Below, piece after piece: positions 8,567-33,236 of a stretch of DNA of 64,000 bases (its first letter is position 1; each line of letters starts with the position of its first letter). The stretch spans positions 1 to 64,000 of the forward strand of contig CAIPAH010000023.1 of the NCBI GenBank assembly GCA_903862955.1, in the 5' to 3' direction. Made by a program: the position numbers and the translations under genes. A model generated the notes under the pieces. That model saw only the letters and a list, made by a program, of their open reading frames with translations, made no database searches and was not told the DNA's origin. Source of the stretch: an uncultured Opitutia bacterium (lineage in GTDB: Bacteria > Verrucomicrobiota > Verrucomicrobiia > Opitutales > Opitutaceae).

Positions 8567-8671
8567 TGGCCACAAAGAGGTGCGAAAAGACGCAAAAAAT
8601 ATCTTCGGATGGGCGTCTTGGGCTGTCGTTGTGTCCACTCTTTTTGCGCCTTTTCGCGCCTCTTTGTGGCT
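8567..8671. repeat. Inverted repeat, CCACAAAGAGG family, copy 1
   Basis: Arms GGCCACAAAGAGGTGCGAAA and TTTTCGCGCCTCTTTGTGGC flank a GC-rich centre. The same family recurs at 10793, 15885, 30246 and 31908. The last two copies overlap the starts of oppA genes. Confidence 0.9.
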
Positions 8672-8739
8672 GATCACCAGGCTCGGGACGGCCGCGTTTT
8701 TGGTGGTCAAGGAGACGGCCGGGCCCCTTCGTTGGAGGC

Positions 8740-10792: not shown

Positions 10793-10900
10793 ACCGCGAA
10801 GGGACGCGAACGACACAAAGCCCAATCGGGTTGGCCACGAAGAGGCGCAGGCAGCGCAAAAAGGGAATCAGCCTTGCGACTTTTGGGCCTCTTTGCGGCT
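10793..10900. repeat. Inverted repeat, CCACAAAGAGG family, copy 2
   Basis: The arm GGCCACGAAGAGGCGCAGGC (about 10832) pairs with the right arm GGGCCTCTTTGCGGC that ends by 10900. An additional CGCGAAGGGACGCGAACGAC half-arm precedes it. The element fills the gap between surE and the ABC ATPase. Confidence 0.8.
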
Positions 10901-10908
10901 AACTCCAC

Positions 10909-11825: not shown

Positions 11826-12347
11826 CTACTTCAACCATTCGACAAATGGCCGACTTTCTTTGGTTAGACCACCAAACCATTCCCAATCTTCCGGGGCGCA
11901 CGTATACCACGGCCATGTCTGTTCTGGTGTGATGAGGCCAGCGCGGTAGGGGTTGAGAAAGATATACAAGAATGTTGGCAGTAGTTCGTCTGTAGATCGG
12001 AGACGATGATCGTAGAAATCCTCCTGCCAGCTCAGATCGTGCCTTCGGAGCACAGGTGTCAGCGGGCCTTTCAGTTGGCGCAATGCATCTGCCAAGCTAC
12101 TTTGTATCCCAAGTGTGACTAACAGGTGAACGTGGTCCGGCATTATCACCGAAGTGCGAACATGCCAAAGTCCACGTCGATTCAATGCGCATAGCTGTGC
12201 CTGCACTTGTGGTGCCAGGATTGTGCTAGCCAGGCCTGTAAGCGGGCGCCGAACACAAACGGTGAGAAAACAGTCGCTGCCCCCTAGCGAGCATCGCCCT
12301 TGGCGGAGCGCGCCATAGCCACGGTAGCCTTTTGGTTCGTCGCTCAC
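11826..12347 (-). CDS. REP-associated tyrosine transposase (RAYT)
   Basis: The 173-residue protein is a Y1/HUH single-strand nuclease of the REP-associated transposase group (IS200-like fold). The HUH pair is H72-V-H74 in MPDHVHLLV. The later WQEDFYDHRLRS and YIFLNPYRAGL segments match the RAYT C-terminal helix; Y128 is the likely nucleophile. RAYTs recognise and cleave GTAG- or GGAG-headed REP hairpins. The gene has its own flanking REP pair and sits alone between surE and pnp. It appears intact. Confidence 0.93.
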   Translation of the reverse strand: MSDEPKGYRGYGALRQGRCSLGGSDCFLTVCVRRPLTGLASTILAPQVQAQLCALNRRGLWHVRTSVIMPDHVHLLVTLGIQSSLADALRQLKGPLTPVLRRHDLSWQEDFYDHRLRSTDELLPTFLYIFLNPYRAGLITPEQTWPWYTCAPEDWEWFGGLTKESRPFVEWLK

Positions 12348-15884: not shown

Positions 15885-16001
15885 TGGCCGCGAAGAGGCA
15901 CGAAAAGGCACAATAACTCTGAGCACATTTGCTCGTGCGCCTATGGGCGCGATGGAACGTTGAGCCGAAGCCACGGAAGTTTTTGTGCCTTTTCGTGGCC
16001 A
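15885..16001. repeat. Inverted repeat, CCACAAAGAGG family, copy 3
   Basis: Left arm GGCCGCGAAGAGGCACGAAA; right arm TTTTTGTGCCTTTTCGTGGC ending at 16001. It abuts the glycosyltransferase at 16002 so that the stop codon of that gene is read at the element border (TGA next to GGCCACG). Confidence 0.85.
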
Positions 16002-27014: not shown

Positions 27015-28706
27015 TTAATGTTTCGCGGCTGAAAGCATCGCGTCGCGGCGGGACTTGAACTCGTTGCCCGGACGCCATTCGGGCCACGTGGGGCTGTTGG
27101 CCACGTGGCGGATCATTTCGGCGAGGAAGGCGGCATCCTGGGCGCCGCCGGCAAAGGTCCAGTCGGGGCGGACTTCGTCGGTGACCTTGTGGTAGTTCTT
27201 GAGGTCAAAATCGGCCTCGAACTTCGTGCCCCAGCCGGCGGGCTGGCCGACGTAATCGAGTCCGCGCTTGGGGTAGATGGCGGGCACGCCGACTTTTGCG
27301 AATTCGAAGTGGTCGCTGCGGTAATAGGAGCCCTTCTCCGGGGCCTGGTCCGGGGTGATGGTGCGACCCTGGCTCTGGGCGACCTCGGTGGCGACGTCGT
27401 CGAGCGTGGACGCGCCCAGGCCGATGATGCGGACATCACGCGTCGGGCCGTAGTAGTTCGCGCCGTCCGTGTTGATGTTGGCGACGGTGTGGTCGAGCGG
27501 GTAGAGCGGGTTGCGCGCATAGAAGCGCGAGCCGAGCAGGCCCTTTTCCTCGGCGGTGACGGACAGGAAAATCACGGTGCGCTTCGGGCGCTGCGCGGCG
27601 GGAGCCTGGGCGAGCGTCTGCGCCACCTCGAGGAGCATGGAGCAGCCGGAGGCGTTGTCGTCGGCGCCATTGTAAATCTGATCGCCGGGCAGGGCGGGAT
27701 TGCGGCCGAGGTGGTCCCAGTGCGCAGAGTAGACGACGTATTCATTGCGGAGCTTGGGATCGGAGCCGGTCAGCTTGCCGACGACGTTGCGCGAATCGAC
27801 GTTGCGCAGCGTGGTGTCGATGCTGAACGACGCCTTGGCGCCGAGCGCGACGGGGTGAAAATCGCGGCTGACGGCGGCGGCCTTCAGCTTGAAGTAATCC
27901 TGCCCGCAGGCGGCGAAGAGCTTCTGGGCGGTCTCGACGGTGAACCAGCCGTTGAGTGCGATGTTGCCGGCGTTGCCGTCGGGGGTACGCAGCGTGAAGT
28001 TCTCGCGGCTGTTGCTCGCGATGACGACGGCGAAGGGATACGCGGCGGGGACCGTCTCGTGGACGATGATGCAGGCGGCGGCGCCCTTGGCGGCGGCGAT
28101 CTCATACTTGTACATCCAGCGGCCGTAGTAGGTCATGGCCTTGCCGCCGAAGACCTTCGGGTCGAGCTGGCCGGTCTTGGGATCGAGGACCGGCGGGTCG
28201 TTGACGAGCATGACGATGGTTTTGCCGCGGACGTCCACGCCCTTGTAGTCGTCCCAGTTGTATTCGGGCGCCACGACGCCGTAGCCGACGAACACGACGT
28301 CGCTCTCCTTGCCCTCGACGTGGGGGACGACGCGCGTGGTGAATGCGACGTAGTCGTTGATGTTGGTGAGCGGAATGACCTTGCCGCCGACTTTGAAGGA
28401 AAGCGTGGGCTTCGACGTGATGCCCACCAGCGGCACGTCCTGGATGTAGGTGCCGTTGGGATTGCCGGGCTCGAGGCCCATCTTTTTGAACTCGCTGACG
28501 AGGTAGGACACGGTCTTTTCCTCGCCGGCGGTGGCGGGACCGCGGCCCTCGAATTCGTCCGAGGCGAGCACCTTGGCGCGCGCGAGCATGCGGGCGGCGT
28601 TGGGTCCCTCCTTCGCCGAGGCTTCGGAGGGCGCGCTACGCGCGGCGTCCGCAAGGGCGAGAGAGGTGGCGCAGGTTGCGGCGAGGAGGAGGAGCTTAGT
28701 CTTCAT
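27015..28706 (-). CDS. M28 family metallopeptidase with a repeat-encoded N-terminal segment
   Basis: The 563-residue exported zinc peptidase has a signal peptide (MKTKLLLLAATCATSLALAD), then an inserted charged stretch (about 21-35), then a PA-like middle region and the M28 core: metal ligands in SAHWDHLG, GADDNASG, TAEEKGLLGS and NTDGANYYG, plus YYRSDHFEFA. M28 peptidases remove N-terminal amino acids from peptides. I chose ATG 28706, which overlaps the end of OppA-like 3 by 11 bases, so translation is probably coupled. The peptidase between peptide-binding genes suggests periplasmic trimming of imported peptides. Confidence 0.92.
   Translation of the reverse strand: MKTKLLLLAATCATSLALADAARSAPSEASAKEGPNAARMLARAKVLASDEFEGRGPATAGEEKTVSYLVSEFKKMGLEPGNPNGTYIQDVPLVGITSKPTLSFKVGGKVIPLTNINDYVAFTTRVVPHVEGKESDVVFVGYGVVAPEYNWDDYKGVDVRGKTIVMLVNDPPVLDPKTGQLDPKVFGGKAMTYYGRWMYKYEIAAAKGAAACIIVHETVPAAYPFAVVIASNSRENFTLRTPDGNAGNIALNGWFTVETAQKLFAACGQDYFKLKAAAVSRDFHPVALGAKASFSIDTTLRNVDSRNVVGKLTGSDPKLRNEYVVYSAHWDHLGRNPALPGDQIYNGADDNASGCSMLLEVAQTLAQAPAAQRPKRTVIFLSVTAEEKGLLGSRFYARNPLYPLDHTVANINTDGANYYGPTRDVRIIGLGASTLDDVATEVAQSQGRTITPDQAPEKGSYYRSDHFEFAKVGVPAIYPKRGLDYVGQPAGWGTKFEADFDLKNYHKVTDEVRPDWTFAGGAQDAAFLAEMIRHVANSPTWPEWRPGNEFKSRRDAMLSAAKH
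28602..28645. repeat. In-frame REP-like hairpin in the M28 peptidase gene
   Basis: On the minus strand GTAG (28636-28639) is followed by CGCGCCCTCCGAAGCCTCGG and GGAGGG. It adds about 15 Ala/Ser/Pro/Glu-rich residues between signal peptide and mature domain. The element resembles the insertion at 3776 in the rRNA methyltransferase gene. Confidence 0.7.
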
Positions 28707-30309
28707 GGAGGTAAACATCTTGGTAGAAACGTGTCCAAAGCGGGTCTTGATGCCAGCCCCGAACTGCGGGGCGCATGAGCCAGTTGGTGGCGTTGAAATA
28801 CAGCGGCGCGAGGGGGCATTCCGCGAGCAGCCGGGCCTCGGCCTCGCGCAGCCGGCCGGCCTGCAACGCCGCATCCGGCGTGTGCGCGGCGCGGGCGATG
28901 AGCTCGTCGTAGCGCGGGTCGCTCCAATGCGGGTAGTTGGCGGGCGAGCCGGTGGTGAAGTCGCCGAGCAGGTTGGCGGCGTCGGCCACGTCGGGAATCG
29001 CCGTGATGAAACCGATGTCGTAGCGGCCCTCACGCAGGGCGGCGACGTGCACCCGGGCCTCGCGGGTCACGAGGGCCACGTCGATGCCGAGTTCGGTTTT
29101 CCACATGGCCTGGATCGCCTCCGTGACGGGCGTGCTGACGAAACTCGACAACTCGAGGCGGGGGAAACCGCGTCCGCCCGGGAAGCCGGCGTCGGCGAGC
29201 AACTGGCGCGCAGTGGCAGGGTCCTCGCGGATTTCGCCGGCGAGTCGCGTCTCCCGGTCATCGCCGTCCCGCAGCGCCGCGGGCACCAGTCGAAAGGCAG
29301 GCTCCTGCCCGCCGTGCACGACGCGGTCGACGAGTTTGGCGCGGTCCAGGGCCAATGAAAGCGCGCGCCGCACGCGGACGTCGTTGAGGGGGGCGCGCGT
29401 GGTGTTGAAGGCCAGGTAACGCGTTTCCGCCAGCGACGCGTGGTGCAATTCGTTGCGGTGCTCGGCGCGATAGGGATCGAGCTTCGAGAAGGGCACGGCC
29501 ATCGTCACGTCGAGCTGGCCGGCGCGGAAGGCGCGTTCCTCGGTGTCGCCGCTGTCGAAGGCGATGAACTGAATCTCGTCGAGGCGGATGCGGAAAGCGT
29601 CGTGGTAGGCGGGATTTTTCCGGACGACGATGCGCTGGTGCGGCTGCCATTCAGCGAGGGTGAACGCGCCGTTGCCGACGAAATGCGCGGGGCGCGTCCA
29701 CGTGCGGCCGAACTGCGCGACGACGCGGGGATTCACGGGAATCCACGGACCGCTGGCGACATAGGCCAGGAAGCGGGGCTGGGGCTGCTCGAGGGTGACC
29801 ACCAGCGTATGGGCGTCGGGCGCGCGAAAGCCGACGGCCTGGAAGTTGTCGAGCTGGCCGGTGGCGAAGGCGCGCGCGTTTTTCACCATGAAGAGCAGCG
29901 GCGCCTTCTGGGCGGCGGTGGCGGGCGTGAGCACGCGGCGGTAGGAGGCGAGGAAGTCGGCGGCGGTGACGGGTTCGCCGTTGGACCAGCGGGCGTTTCT
30001 CCGCAGGTGGAACGTGTAGGTGCACAGGTCCGGCGAGATTTCCCAGCTTGTGGCGGCGGCCGGCTGGGACGGGCGGTTGTCGGGGGCCGGCGCGACCAAG
30101 CCCTCGCTCAGGGCGCGGATGATGAAGAGCTCATCGGGCAGGGAGGCCGTCGCGGGATCGAGGTCGGCGGGCTCGTTGCGCTGGCTGATGCGGAGGACCT
30201 GCTGGGCCGGAGCCGCGGAGTCGGTCCGTTTGCAGCCGGAGTGAATGGCCACAAAGAGGCACAAAAGTGCACAAGAACCAATCCAGCCAGAGCTCCGTTT
30301 TTTGCGCAT
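28696..30309 (-). CDS. Peptide substrate-binding lipoprotein (OppA-like 3), repeat-derived signal peptide
   Basis: The 537-residue SBP-bac-5 protein keeps the core motif TYTFHLRRNARWSNGEP. Its lipoprotein signal has a positively charged n-region (MRKKRSSG), a core LLCLFVA and lipobox HSGC with C26. The core is coded by the right arm of the repeat at 30246-30329, and the left arm gives AAAGAGG seven bases before the ATG, a good ribosome site. The same arrangement is found in OppA-like 4. Its end overlaps the M28 start. Confidence 0.92.
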   Translation of the reverse strand: MRKKRSSGWIGSCALLCLFVAIHSGCKRTDSAAPAQQVLRISQRNEPADLDPATASLPDELFIIRALSEGLVAPAPDNRPSQPAAATSWEISPDLCTYTFHLRRNARWSNGEPVTAADFLASYRRVLTPATAAQKAPLLFMVKNARAFATGQLDNFQAVGFRAPDAHTLVVTLEQPQPRFLAYVASGPWIPVNPRVVAQFGRTWTRPAHFVGNGAFTLAEWQPHQRIVVRKNPAYHDAFRIRLDEIQFIAFDSGDTEERAFRAGQLDVTMAVPFSKLDPYRAEHRNELHHASLAETRYLAFNTTRAPLNDVRVRRALSLALDRAKLVDRVVHGGQEPAFRLVPAALRDGDDRETRLAGEIREDPATARQLLADAGFPGGRGFPRLELSSFVSTPVTEAIQAMWKTELGIDVALVTREARVHVAALREGRYDIGFITAIPDVADAANLLGDFTTGSPANYPHWSDPRYDELIARAAHTPDAALQAGRLREAEARLLAECPLAPLYFNATNWLMRPAVRGWHQDPLWTRFYQDVYLHED

Positions 30310-30329
30310 TTTTGTGCCTCTTTGTGGTC
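30246..30329. repeat. Inverted repeat, CCACAAAGAGG family, copy 4, exapted as gene start
   Basis: The arms GGCCACAAAGAGGCACAAAA and TTTTTGTGCCTCTTTGTGGT pair almost perfectly. In the direction of OppA-like 3 the first arm holds the AAAGAGG ribosome site (30317-30323), the ATG (30307-30309) follows directly, and the second arm is translated as residues 15-21 of the signal peptide. Confidence 0.93.
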
Positions 30330-30343
30330 AAAATTCCGGCGGC

Positions 30344-31975
30344 CTATTCCTCCAGCCAGACATGTTTATACGGGTGGTGGTCCAGCAGCGTGGGGTGCCA
30401 GCCTTTGACGGACGGTTGGAGGAGAAAGACGTGCGTGTTGTAGTAGAGCGGAATGATGGGCGCGTCGGCGAGCATCAGGGCCTCGGCTTGCTGCAGCTGG
30501 CGGGCGCGCTCCGCGGCATCGGGCGTGCGGGCGGCGGCGAAGAGGAGACTGTCGTAGGCGGTGCTGGTCCAGGTCGTGTGATTGTTGCTGCTGTCGCTCC
30601 GCCAGAGGTCGAGGAAGGTGCTCGCATCGAGGTAGTCGCCGACCCAGTCGGAGAGGAGGATCTGGAAATTCCCGGTGCGGCGCTCGGTGAGGACGACCTT
30701 GAATTCCTGGTTCACCAGGCGCACGTCGAGGCCGAGCTCGCGGCGCCACATTTCCTGCAGGGCCTCGGCGAGCGTGCGGTGATTCTCGGACGTGTTGTAG
30801 AGCAGCTCGACGGGCGGCAGGCCCTTGCCACCGGGAAAACCGGCGTCGGCGAGCAGTCGGCGGGCGGCGTCGAAATTGACGGCGAGGCCGGTGGGCGCGG
30901 TGTAGCCGGGCAGGCCCGGGGGCGTGAGGGCTGTGGCGGGGTGTTGGCCGCCGTGGAGGATCTTTTCGACGATGGCGGCGCGGTCGATGGCTTGCGCGAG
31001 CGCGCGGCGGACGCGGACATCACCGAGTGGCGGACGCAGCAAATTGAGCCGGAGAAAATAAGTGTCGAGATAGGGATCGGTCCGCAGGAGCTGCGGCGAC
31101 TCACGGCGATACGTGTCCACCTTGCTGAACGGCAGCACGTAGGTGACGTGCAGCTGGCCGGAGCGGAAGGCGCGTTCCTCGGTGTCGACGCTGTCGATCG
31201 GGTAAAAATTGATCGCGCTCAGCCGCACGTGGGCGGCGTCCCAGTAGGTGGGCGATTTTTCAACGATGATGCGGCGATTCGGCTCCCACGACTTGAGCGT
31301 GAACGGACCGTTGCCGACGAAGGTGGCGGGCTTGGTCCAGGGGTTGCCGCGTTCGCTGGCCGGGCCGCTCGCGGCGATGGTTGGCACCGGCACGGGCAGC
31401 CAGGCAGGATTGGTCAACAGCGAGAGGAAATACGGCGCCGGGTGTTCGAGGCGGACGCGCAGCGTGTGCGGGTCGAGGGCGGTGACGCCCACGGAGTTGA
31501 AGTCCTTCGTCAGCCCGCGATGAAACGCCTCGGCGCCTTGGAGCAGGTGCAGCAGGTCGGCGTTGGTGGCCCCGAGCGACGGCGTGAGAATGCGGCGCCA
31601 CGATTCGACAAAATCCTGCGCGGTGACCGGGACGCCGTTCGACCAGCGAGCGCCCGCGCGCAGGTGAAACTGGTAGGTCAGCTGGTCGGCGGAGATTTCC
31701 CAGCTTTCGGCCACGCCGGGCACCGGGTGGAGGTCCACGGGATCCTCCGCCACGAGGCCCTCAAAGAGGGCGGACGCGATGTCGCCCTCGGCGATGTTGG
31801 CGGCGAGCTGGGGGTCGAGATCGCTGACCTCGGAGCCGATGCCGCGATGCAGCACTTGGTCGCGGTTGCCGCTTTGCACGGCGGATTCGCGACGGGCGCA
31901 GCCGGTGATGGCCACGAAGAGGCACAAGCAGGCACAGGAAAGAGTCGGGCCGAGGAAACGGAATTTTTTGTGCAT
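30344..31975 (-). CDS. Peptide substrate-binding lipoprotein (OppA-like 4), repeat-derived signal peptide
   Basis: The 543-residue SBP-bac-5 protein has the family motif TYQFHLRAGARWSNGVP. Its signal peptide starts MHKKFRFLGP, has the core CLCLFVA (about 16-22) and lipobox ITGC with C26, the same residue number as in OppA-like 3. The core is coded by the right arm of the repeat at 31908-31996, and the left arm gives GAAGAGG seven bases ahead of the ATG. It is the first oppA of the run, downstream of ispF. Confidence 0.92.
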   Translation of the reverse strand: MHKKFRFLGPTLSCACLCLFVAITGCARRESAVQSGNRDQVLHRGIGSEVSDLDPQLAANIAEGDIASALFEGLVAEDPVDLHPVPGVAESWEISADQLTYQFHLRAGARWSNGVPVTAQDFVESWRRILTPSLGATNADLLHLLQGAEAFHRGLTKDFNSVGVTALDPHTLRVRLEHPAPYFLSLLTNPAWLPVPVPTIAASGPASERGNPWTKPATFVGNGPFTLKSWEPNRRIIVEKSPTYWDAAHVRLSAINFYPIDSVDTEERAFRSGQLHVTYVLPFSKVDTYRRESPQLLRTDPYLDTYFLRLNLLRPPLGDVRVRRALAQAIDRAAIVEKILHGGQHPATALTPPGLPGYTAPTGLAVNFDAARRLLADAGFPGGKGLPPVELLYNTSENHRTLAEALQEMWRRELGLDVRLVNQEFKVVLTERRTGNFQILLSDWVGDYLDASTFLDLWRSDSSNNHTTWTSTAYDSLLFAAARTPDAAERARQLQQAEALMLADAPIIPLYYNTHVFLLQPSVKGWHPTLLDHHPYKHVWLEE

Positions 31976-31996
31976 GCTGGTGCCTCTTCGTGGCCA
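31908..31996. repeat. Inverted repeat, CCACAAAGAGG family, copy 5, exapted as gene start
   Basis: Arms GGCCACGAAGAGGCACAAGC and GGTGCCTCTTCGTGGCCA. The ribosome site GAAGAGG (31983-31989) and the ATG (31973-31975) of OppA-like 4 lie in or next to the first arm; the second arm is read as the signal-peptide core. Confidence 0.92.
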
Positions 31997-32005
31997 ACGC
32001 TCGCC

Positions 32006-32485
32006 TTAGCGGCGAAGCAGGCACACGGCATGGGCGGCGATGGCGAGGCCGCGGCCGATGTCGTCGCTGCCCTCGTTGGTGGTCGCCTTGACGCCGATCT
32101 CGTCGGCCATCAGGCCGGATGACCGGGCGAGCGCGGCCTTCATCTCGGCCAGGCGCGGGGCAATCTTGGGCTTTTCGGCGACGACGGTGGCGTCGAGGTT
32201 GACGAGATCAAAGCCGAGCTTGCGGACCTCGCCGACGACGCGCTGCAGGAGTTTCTGGGAATCGATATTCTTGAAAGCGGGGTCGGTGTTGGGAAATTGG
32301 TGTCCGATGTCGGGCAGGCCGGCGGCGCCGAGGATCGCGTCACAGATCGCGTGCGTCAGGCAGTCGGCGTCGGAGTGCCCGTCGAGGCCGTAGTCAGTGT
32401 CGAACTTCACGCCGCCGAGCACGAGGGGACGGCCCGCAACGAGGCGGTGGATGTCGTAGCCGTGGCCGATGCGGATTGTAGCCAT
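32006..32485 (-). CDS. ispF: 2-C-methyl-D-erythritol 2,4-cyclodiphosphate synthase
   Basis: The 159-residue trimeric enzyme of the MEP isoprenoid pathway is recognised by GHGYDIHRL and GLDGHSDADCLTHAI, which carry the Zn-binding Asp/His residues, and by the C-terminal TTNEGSDDIGRG. It follows ispD on the same strand after a 30-base gap that holds a repeat abutting the ATG. The segment normally written TTTEGLGFTG in the family differs slightly here. Confidence 0.97.
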   Translation of the reverse strand: MATIRIGHGYDIHRLVAGRPLVLGGVKFDTDYGLDGHSDADCLTHAICDAILGAAGLPDIGHQFPNTDPAFKNIDSQKLLQRVVGEVRKLGFDLVNLDATVVAEKPKIAPRLAEMKAALARSSGLMADEIGVKATTNEGSDDIGRGLAIAAHAVCLLRR

Positions 32486-33203: not shown

Positions 33204-33236
33204 TAGAGATCAGAAGTCAGAAATCAGAGATCAGAT
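33204..33236. repeat. TCAGAAGTCAGAAATCAGAG-type repeat upstream of ispD
   Basis: It includes TCAGAAGTCAGAAATCA, which matches 17 bases of the in-frame insertion at 3011-3027 on the opposite strand. This is the intergenic counterpart of that coding insertion. The following 33240-33282 hold half of an AGCCAGGGAGCCGGGA-type element. Confidence 0.8.

Follow-up and report, generated by a model that had tools for sequence, protein, structure and literature searches.

The start of oppA4, a gene for a solute-binding lipoprotein, lies within an intact copy of a palindromic repeat that is dispersed through the genome of this Opitutaceae bacterium, and the adjacent paralogue oppA3 starts in the same manner within a second copy. 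From the sequence comparisons described below we consider it probable, at roughly 85%, that the element was gained at the junction of ispF with oppA4 as well as at that of oppA4 with oppA3, and that it now codes for the starts of both genes. The window, by which we mean the whole 64,000-nt stretch of DNA analysed, is part of contig C23 of a 3.61-Mb genome.

Gene starts within the two elements

The element at oppA4 occupies positions 31909–31996 and is an imperfect palindrome, with 33-nt arms (31909–31941 and 31964–31996) that are 88% complementary and 22 nt apart. Read in the sense of the gene, the 5′ arm (31996–31964) is purine-rich and the 3′ arm (31941–31909) pyrimidine-rich. The 543-aa frame of oppA4 (30344–31975, minus strand; SBP_bac_5 by Pfam and reading frame) begins with an ATG within the 5′ arm (31973–31975, minus strand), preceded at 7 nt by a Shine–Dalgarno-like GAAGAGG in the same arm (31983–31989, minus strand), and the 3′ arm codes for the hydrophobic core, including CLCLFVA, of a predicted lipoprotein signal peptide, MHKKFRFLGPTLSCACLCLFVAITGC (31898–31975, minus strand). 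Residues 1–22 of this peptide come from the element; ITGC follows the core, its cysteine, residue 26, being just outside. The binding site at 7 nt, the CLCLFVA core from the other arm and the position of the cysteine are exactly as claimed in the first-pass annotation. The upstream gene, ispF (Pfam YgbB; 32006–32485, minus strand), stops 9 nt before the element, and from the preceding in-frame stop to the mature part of oppA4 there is no ATG other than that of the element, TTG and GTG codons being present in the 3′ arm.

The sister element at oppA3 (30246–30330) has 32-nt arms (30246–30277 and 30299–30330), likewise 88% complementary. The two genes had been said to share one geometry, and they do: AAAGAGG (30317–30323, minus strand) stands 7 nt before an ATG within the arm (30307–30309), and the 537-aa protein (28696–30309, minus strand; SBP_bac_5 by Pfam and reading frame) has the signal peptide MRKKRSSGWIGSCALLCLFVAIHSGC, whose cysteine is again residue 26. 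Here the upstream stop is that of oppA4, 13 nt before the element. SBP_bac_5 (PF00496) was matched by the window's four OppA-like proteins scanned, with 321.7 bits for OppA4 and 266.1 bits for OppA3 against a cut-off of 32.4. The mature proteins are under purifying selection, dN being 0.11–0.14 and dS 0.66–0.78 between the oppA4 and oppA3 of the window and their relatives.

The oppA4 start combines a basic n-region, a hydrophobic core and a lipobox cysteine, as predicted for bacterial lipoprotein signal peptides. In the frame used, the first arm is basic, giving WPRRGT and then MHKK or MRKK, and the second arm (taken as a composite) has a mean Kyte–Doolittle hydropathy of 3.03 in the CLFVA frame versus 0.73 and 0.24 in the other two. 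Hence one palindrome yields binding site, start, n-region and core: the purine-rich 5′ arm would provide the ATG, a Shine–Dalgarno-like AAGAGG ahead of it and the basic n-region (M-H/R-K-K), and the pyrimidine-rich 3′ arm, in its CLFVA frame, would provide the core, with the lipobox cysteine just beyond. Since a palindrome runs from purines to pyrimidines whichever strand is read, the element could in principle function in both orientations. It is probably the ATG of the element that is used, and the peptide would be exported and lipidated. Under a strict PS51257-like lipobox pattern, the oppA4 of the window and that of L096 match; the window's oppA3, with His at −3, and five of six element-derived signal peptides tried from relatives do not.

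It might be argued that the repeat is an ordinary intergenic one and that both genes start elsewhere, without it, given that copies are mostly intergenic and that most neighbouring genes have their ATG after the element. This is very improbable, however, because neither the oppA3 nor the oppA4 frame has another ATG before the mature part, and because without the element both proteins would have no signal peptide, whereas a hydrophobic stretch followed by [AGSP]C is found in 158 of 159 distinct oppA3 and oppA4 start regions. In the exception, L155, the stretch examined is too short, and the start region ends in TFTAC.

Codons for L, F, V and A are abundant in signal peptides, and the hydrophobic codons of any signal peptide might resemble the arm by chance; the weaker matches in L062, L097 and L101 may be of this kind. 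As an account of the stronger matches chance is scarcely credible. A position weight matrix, for which 80 arms were taken from the remaining elements in the genome of the window, was run on 214 OppA start regions, with a background maximum of 11.0 bits in 428 gene-body scans. Among the 182 distinct regions, 16 scored at least 18 bits, against 0.02 expected from codon shuffles within the start regions, a control that allows for the composition of signal peptides; all starts with a forward score of at least 10 bits carry the motif in the CLFVA frame. Moreover, the intact cases possess both arms, and a full palindrome contradicts a chance likeness for the genes of the window.

The repeat family and other element-derived starts

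The first-pass annotation had seen in 31908–31996 a repeat-derived gene start, and the observation is real: with at most one mismatch, a 17-nt core of the arm occurs 67 times in the 3.61-Mb genome and the reversed pattern not at all. With at most two mismatches there are 102 occurrences versus 2 for the reversed pattern, and with at most three the window alone holds 10, against 0.5 expected. The 102 arms form 60 clusters, 42 two-armed and 18 one-armed, some of the single arms lying within genes, perhaps by chance. Most clusters are intergenic according to a simple gene caller, a codon-usage script trained on the genes of the window. Further intergenic copies in the window lie at 8567–8672, at 10832–10901 and at 15885–16001, the last belonging to a longer subfamily with GCGCCTATGGGCGC at its centre. 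By eye, two subfamilies can be distinguished: the members of the first measure about 113 bp and have a GCGCCTATAGGCGC-like centre, whereas those of the second vary in length (67–174 bp). In two copies of the second, at G000:C30:145940–146098 and C30:147378–147545, another long palindrome (GGTCGTCGATTTCC...) is nested in the loop of the element. With the oppA pair left out, a paired element lies within 25 nt of 29 of the 37 gene 3′ ends that were measured and of 10 of the 40 gene starts that were called. The dispersed palindrome usually sits just after stop codons, and it would have been gained at the two junctions upstream of oppA4 and oppA3. Beyond this genome, a degenerate arm pattern without mismatches is present in 98 of 252 genomes of the family and in 32 of 49 genera; the reversed control was found in 3 genomes, once in each.

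Inverted arms are seen in other copies of the family as well. With its many, mostly intergenic copies and its inverted arms, the element is classed only as a dispersed palindromic repeat. The terminal inverted repeats expected of a MITE are present at both oppA elements as arms of 32–33 nt, and no Rfam family was found at gathering score within the 64-kb window. Y1_Tnp (PF01797) is the REP-associated type of transposase. The genome has two matches above cut-off, one of them in the window (12021–12188), 1.1 kb from a copy of the repeat, and the other at C22:240405, 65 kb away from the closest of the arms listed for its contig; no link was found between these two genes and the element. The match in the window is barely over the cut-off (24.8 bits) and lies in an open frame of 173 aa (11826–12347, minus strand).

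How often such an element starts a gene was read around the 60 clusters of the window genome, where 43 element/gene-start pairs were compared. Three features, an ATG within the element, the lack of any further ATG ahead of the mature part and the use of the CLFVA frame, come together only at oppA3 and oppA4, hence in 2 of the 60 clusters. Most element-adjacent genes have their ATG after the element. At C13:209776 the ATG of the element is open into a gene of 462 aa; a second ATG further on, however, begins a full signal peptide of its own, and the case was not counted. Other genes, such as that at C24:249542, have an in-frame element ATG, other frames for the arm and their own ATG after the element, and the gene at C4:17088 is open through the arm and lacks an ATG in the element. 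A genome-wide count of further cases had been proposed by the first-pass annotation; none was added in the window's own genome, and the cases gained lie in other genera and in two further genes of G204.

These came from reading 296 arms of the window genome and six others in three frames, considering frames of at least 80 open codons with a coding score above 0.12 (the oppA3 of G204 falls outside these limits and is known from the gene-blind search). Six new cases were accepted, all in the CLFVA frame: oppA4 in G204, G209 and G113, oppA3 in G059, and a pair of adjacent G204 genes that encode a PF00144 hydrolase and a PF03629 esterase with predicted signal peptides and start within elements. 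These two adjacent genes (L230) share, by eye, near-alike elements of the 113-bp type and similar flanks, which suggests from the sequence that a start module may have been copied from gene to neighbouring gene. The element-rich genomes G207 and G015 (27 and 52 pattern matches) gave no accepted gene-start case, and an empty site for the G204 hydrolase was not demonstrable because its congeneric homologues are too distant (at most 39% identity). Among 247 oriented elements an ATG is open to CLFVA in 35, and in 13 of these it is located 18–30 nt into the first arm; seven of the 13 are gene starts (the window's oppA3 and oppA4, plus every new case except G113) and six are without an accepted gene. 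At L252 the open frame (MREKIHSNTG...) has no evident gene character, and at L202 in G204, peptidase-like by eye, the element holds the ATG, yet its arm is read in a different frame and the hydrophobic core comes only after the arm. Most of the genomes compared are metagenome assemblies by title; G113, a single-contig assembly, likewise has an element-derived oppA4 start.

A pattern combining arm and lipobox, in which no gene was named, gave 16 matches in 11 of the 252 genomes, against a single one for the reversed pattern. The cysteine is in frame in 11 of the 16, and nine of these 11 are OppA4 (five) or OppA3 (four), spread over four genera (g1, g27, g37 and g18). For the other two in-frame matches, L177 and L186 (C3:50459), there was neither an OppA match nor a credible gene in frame. 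The predominance of OppA may partly reflect the search, since the pattern demands GGCTGC and misses other lipoboxes and all non-lipoprotein signals; indeed, it missed the two extra G204 genes, which were found only by reading the arms in three frames.

Number of acquisitions

The named relatives of the window's OppA4 are Opitutaceae, many of them from lakes, ponds or groundwater according to their titles. OppA3 and OppA4 are 46% identical, and the neighbouring pair, assigned by tblastn, recurs in many of 110 Opitutaceae loci, so that the duplication is old and looks older than the elements. The first-pass annotation had left open whether the repeat was recruited twice independently or only once, with the arrangement then retained across an old duplication; separate gains fit better, and at 46% identity the genes are not the recent tandem duplicates that, according to it, would have reduced matters to one event. 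It had further proposed comparing OppA phylogeny with the identity of the arms. The arms of the window's two elements rank only 9th–16th of 41 to each other, and the phylogeny places remnants of the element throughout an oppA3 clade and an element at oppA4 only in the window and in L052/L096.

A single clade with 98% support (FastTree) unites the oppA3 genes of L083, L053 and L052/L096 with that of the window, and all have arm remnants, although in L096 and L083 other sequence now takes the place of the first arm. For oppA4 in the same group, L053 and L083 are element-free, and so are L081 and L082: the stop of ispF overlaps the ATG (TGATGG), and no arm stands above background, the start of L081 resembling the first arm at 5.9 bits, under the background maximum. 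In L096 the 5′ arm with its binding site is kept, and the second arm has diverged but is still hydrophobic, FSCAFLGLLVVTTGC. The oppA4 tree, (window,(L053,(L052,L083))), with its forks starred, makes the element-free L083 the sister of the element-bearing L052, and a tree uniting the element bearers (window and L052) was rejected with a p-AU of 1.4e-8, in a test on 15 rows chosen from 96 in which the group was named after the states were known. The mature oppA4 genes of L096 and L083 are 95.1% identical in nucleotides. Over the wider trees the marked state changes at least seven times among 94 oppA4 rows (8 marked) and five times among 54 oppA3 rows (8 marked), counts that include weaker arm-only matches and in which gain and loss are indistinguishable. 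The 94-row tree leaves out L052 and L180, the twin of the latter, L112, being kept, and 12 of 66 oppA3 rows were removed as duplicates, each with a near-identical row kept.

Because the distribution of the element differs between the two genes within the genus, separate gains for oppA3 and oppA4 appear to fit best. Two separate gains within oppA4 would be the simplest reading, as one gain with two clean reversions would require the overlapping start to be recreated. More than one acquisition is thus supported by the tree, short of proof: local copying between the oppA3 and oppA4 starts followed by divergence could mimic separate insertions, and so could an old acquisition followed by losses of the element in L053 and L083.

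Alternatively, the element may have inserted only once, in one of the oppA genes, and spread to the adjacent one through duplication of the gene or through gene conversion. The identical layout of the adjacent paralogues would agree with this, as would the AGCATGCAC common to the starts of the window's oppA4, L096 oppA4 and L053 oppA3, and local copying is also suggested by G204, where two unrelated neighbours have similar elements with shared flanks, as judged by eye. Nevertheless, a single event seems unlikely, given that the paralogues are only 46% identical, that the window's two elements have closer kin than each other (9th–16th of 41), and that the oppA4 genes of L053 and L083 are element-free, yet their oppA3 has arm remnants.

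Hairpin, precedents and other repeats at oppA starts

In RNA folding, the oppA4 stretch has a z of −7.2 and the oppA3 stretch one of −5.7, and none of 200 shuffles was as stable as either. The predicted probability that the binding site is unpaired is 0.00–0.01 in the window's oppA4 and oppA3, L189 and L190 and 0.00–0.02 in the two G204 genes; the site is predicted to be freer (0.23–0.53) in five OppA copies whose arms have changed, and its value reaches 0.75–0.81 in two element-free oppA4 genes. The start-codon stretch shows no such trend and is about equally paired with or without the element, being unpaired, by the same prediction, at 0.05–0.10 in the element-free L053 and L083 versus 0.12–0.13 in the window. 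Efficient unaided translation is doubtful, because in intact copies the binding site is predicted to be fully paired, and translation would have to overcome the hairpin that buries it. Help probably comes from ribosomes that have translated the preceding gene, which ends 9 nt (ispF) or 13 nt (oppA4) ahead of the element, and later divergence of the arms would free the site.

The palindrome may instead be mainly a cis-acting RNA hairpin, for the control of oppA translation or for mRNA stability, its coding capacity being a by-product. The strong folding and the buried site of four OppA copies would be expected of such a hairpin. We nonetheless hold this to be improbable, since in L096, L083 and L061 one arm has diverged or been replaced, with the hydrophobic core kept and the site freer (0.23–0.42), and since L053 oppA3 and L181, scored as two-armed, are also freer (0.29 and 0.53).

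The kind of phenomenon is already known, since repeats of Yersinia and Rickettsia precede it. In Yersinia the small repeat YPAL, or RU-2, makes up a portion of the signal peptide predicted for YPO1552, and in other genera the signal sequences predicted for YPO1552-like proteins bear no relation to it (Delihas 2007, PMC2759123, PMC2229807). This is the closest precedent, in that a dispersed palindromic repeat contributes to an export signal; its main case, however, concerns a single protein, putatively exported, from another phylum and with a different element, whereas here two conserved transporter lipoproteins are concerned, binding site, ATG and hydrophobic core would all derive from the element, element-free relatives can be shown and several lineages are involved. 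The palindromic elements of Rickettsia are located in many unrelated genes. They are translated in frame within host proteins (review PMC10969869); by that description they differ from the present element, which is predicted to form the gene start and the export signal. Neither account, in the passages cited, showed an element that provides the entire start module, a host gene for a conserved transporter lipoprotein, close relatives lacking the element or its recurrent use. REP and REPIN sequences are dispersed intergenic hairpins, present in many copies, with RAYT transposases. The element resembles them in its many dispersed intergenic hairpins, in a genome with two Y1_Tnp matches; unlike them, the copies examined have no evident GTAG foot, a mark of REPs. 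No account of this repeat family or of such Opitutaceae starts was found in the literature searched, mostly outside subscription papers, and a 13-letter arm sequence retrieved only an unrelated worm paper.

The conversion of bacterial non-coding repeats into parts of proteins has mostly been argued from single cases. As both states of one conserved gene occur here at small distances on a resolved tree, the passage from insertion to domesticated signal peptide becomes traceable and testable. It is tempting to speculate, at a little under even odds, that the signal-peptide starts of Opitutaceae are a recurrent sink for repeats, in which purine–pyrimidine palindromes would act as ready-made start modules that replace starts after stop codons, at first silencing the gene by their hairpin and later becoming ordinary signal peptides. 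The latter would come about as the arms diverge under selection for hydrophobicity, and in other lineages oppA4 seems to have made similar use of further repeats rich in pyrimidines. Such a process could help to explain the unrelated-looking signal peptides among orthologous lipoproteins, and gene callers may misplace starts that are coded by elements.

Other repeats were noticed at oppA starts. By eye, the oppA4 signal peptides of L090, L158, L061, L060 and L125 come from degenerate 7-nt tandem repeats (CCTCTGTC or CTTCTGGC), which yield peptides such as SSVLCLLSSVFWLLA, a second type of repeat acting as signal peptide. Exact CYTCTGTCYTCTGWC occurs 5, 3 and 1 times in G061, G060 and G125 (reversed control 2, 0 and 2) and is absent from G000 and G017 (reversed control 0 and 1). 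In L150, L119 and L111 the oppA4 signal peptides FVSFVCFVG, LSCLFVCFVG and YLFVYFAG come from stretches like TTTCGTGTCTTTTCGTGTGTTTCGTGG. The oppA4–oppA3 junction looks like a hot spot for palindromic elements, since in L081, L082, L083 and L295 it is occupied by other palindromes (GGTGGAGC...GCTCCACC; GGGTCTTTGACCCGCCC; a hairpin with CTGAGCGCAGCGAAGGATCC). In the window itself a purine-rich, tandem-like stretch, gagatcagaagtcagaaatcagagatcagat (33206–33236), lies between genes that by eye are ispD-like and pyrF-like, and it is similar in kind to the 7-nt repeats of the oppA4 starts.
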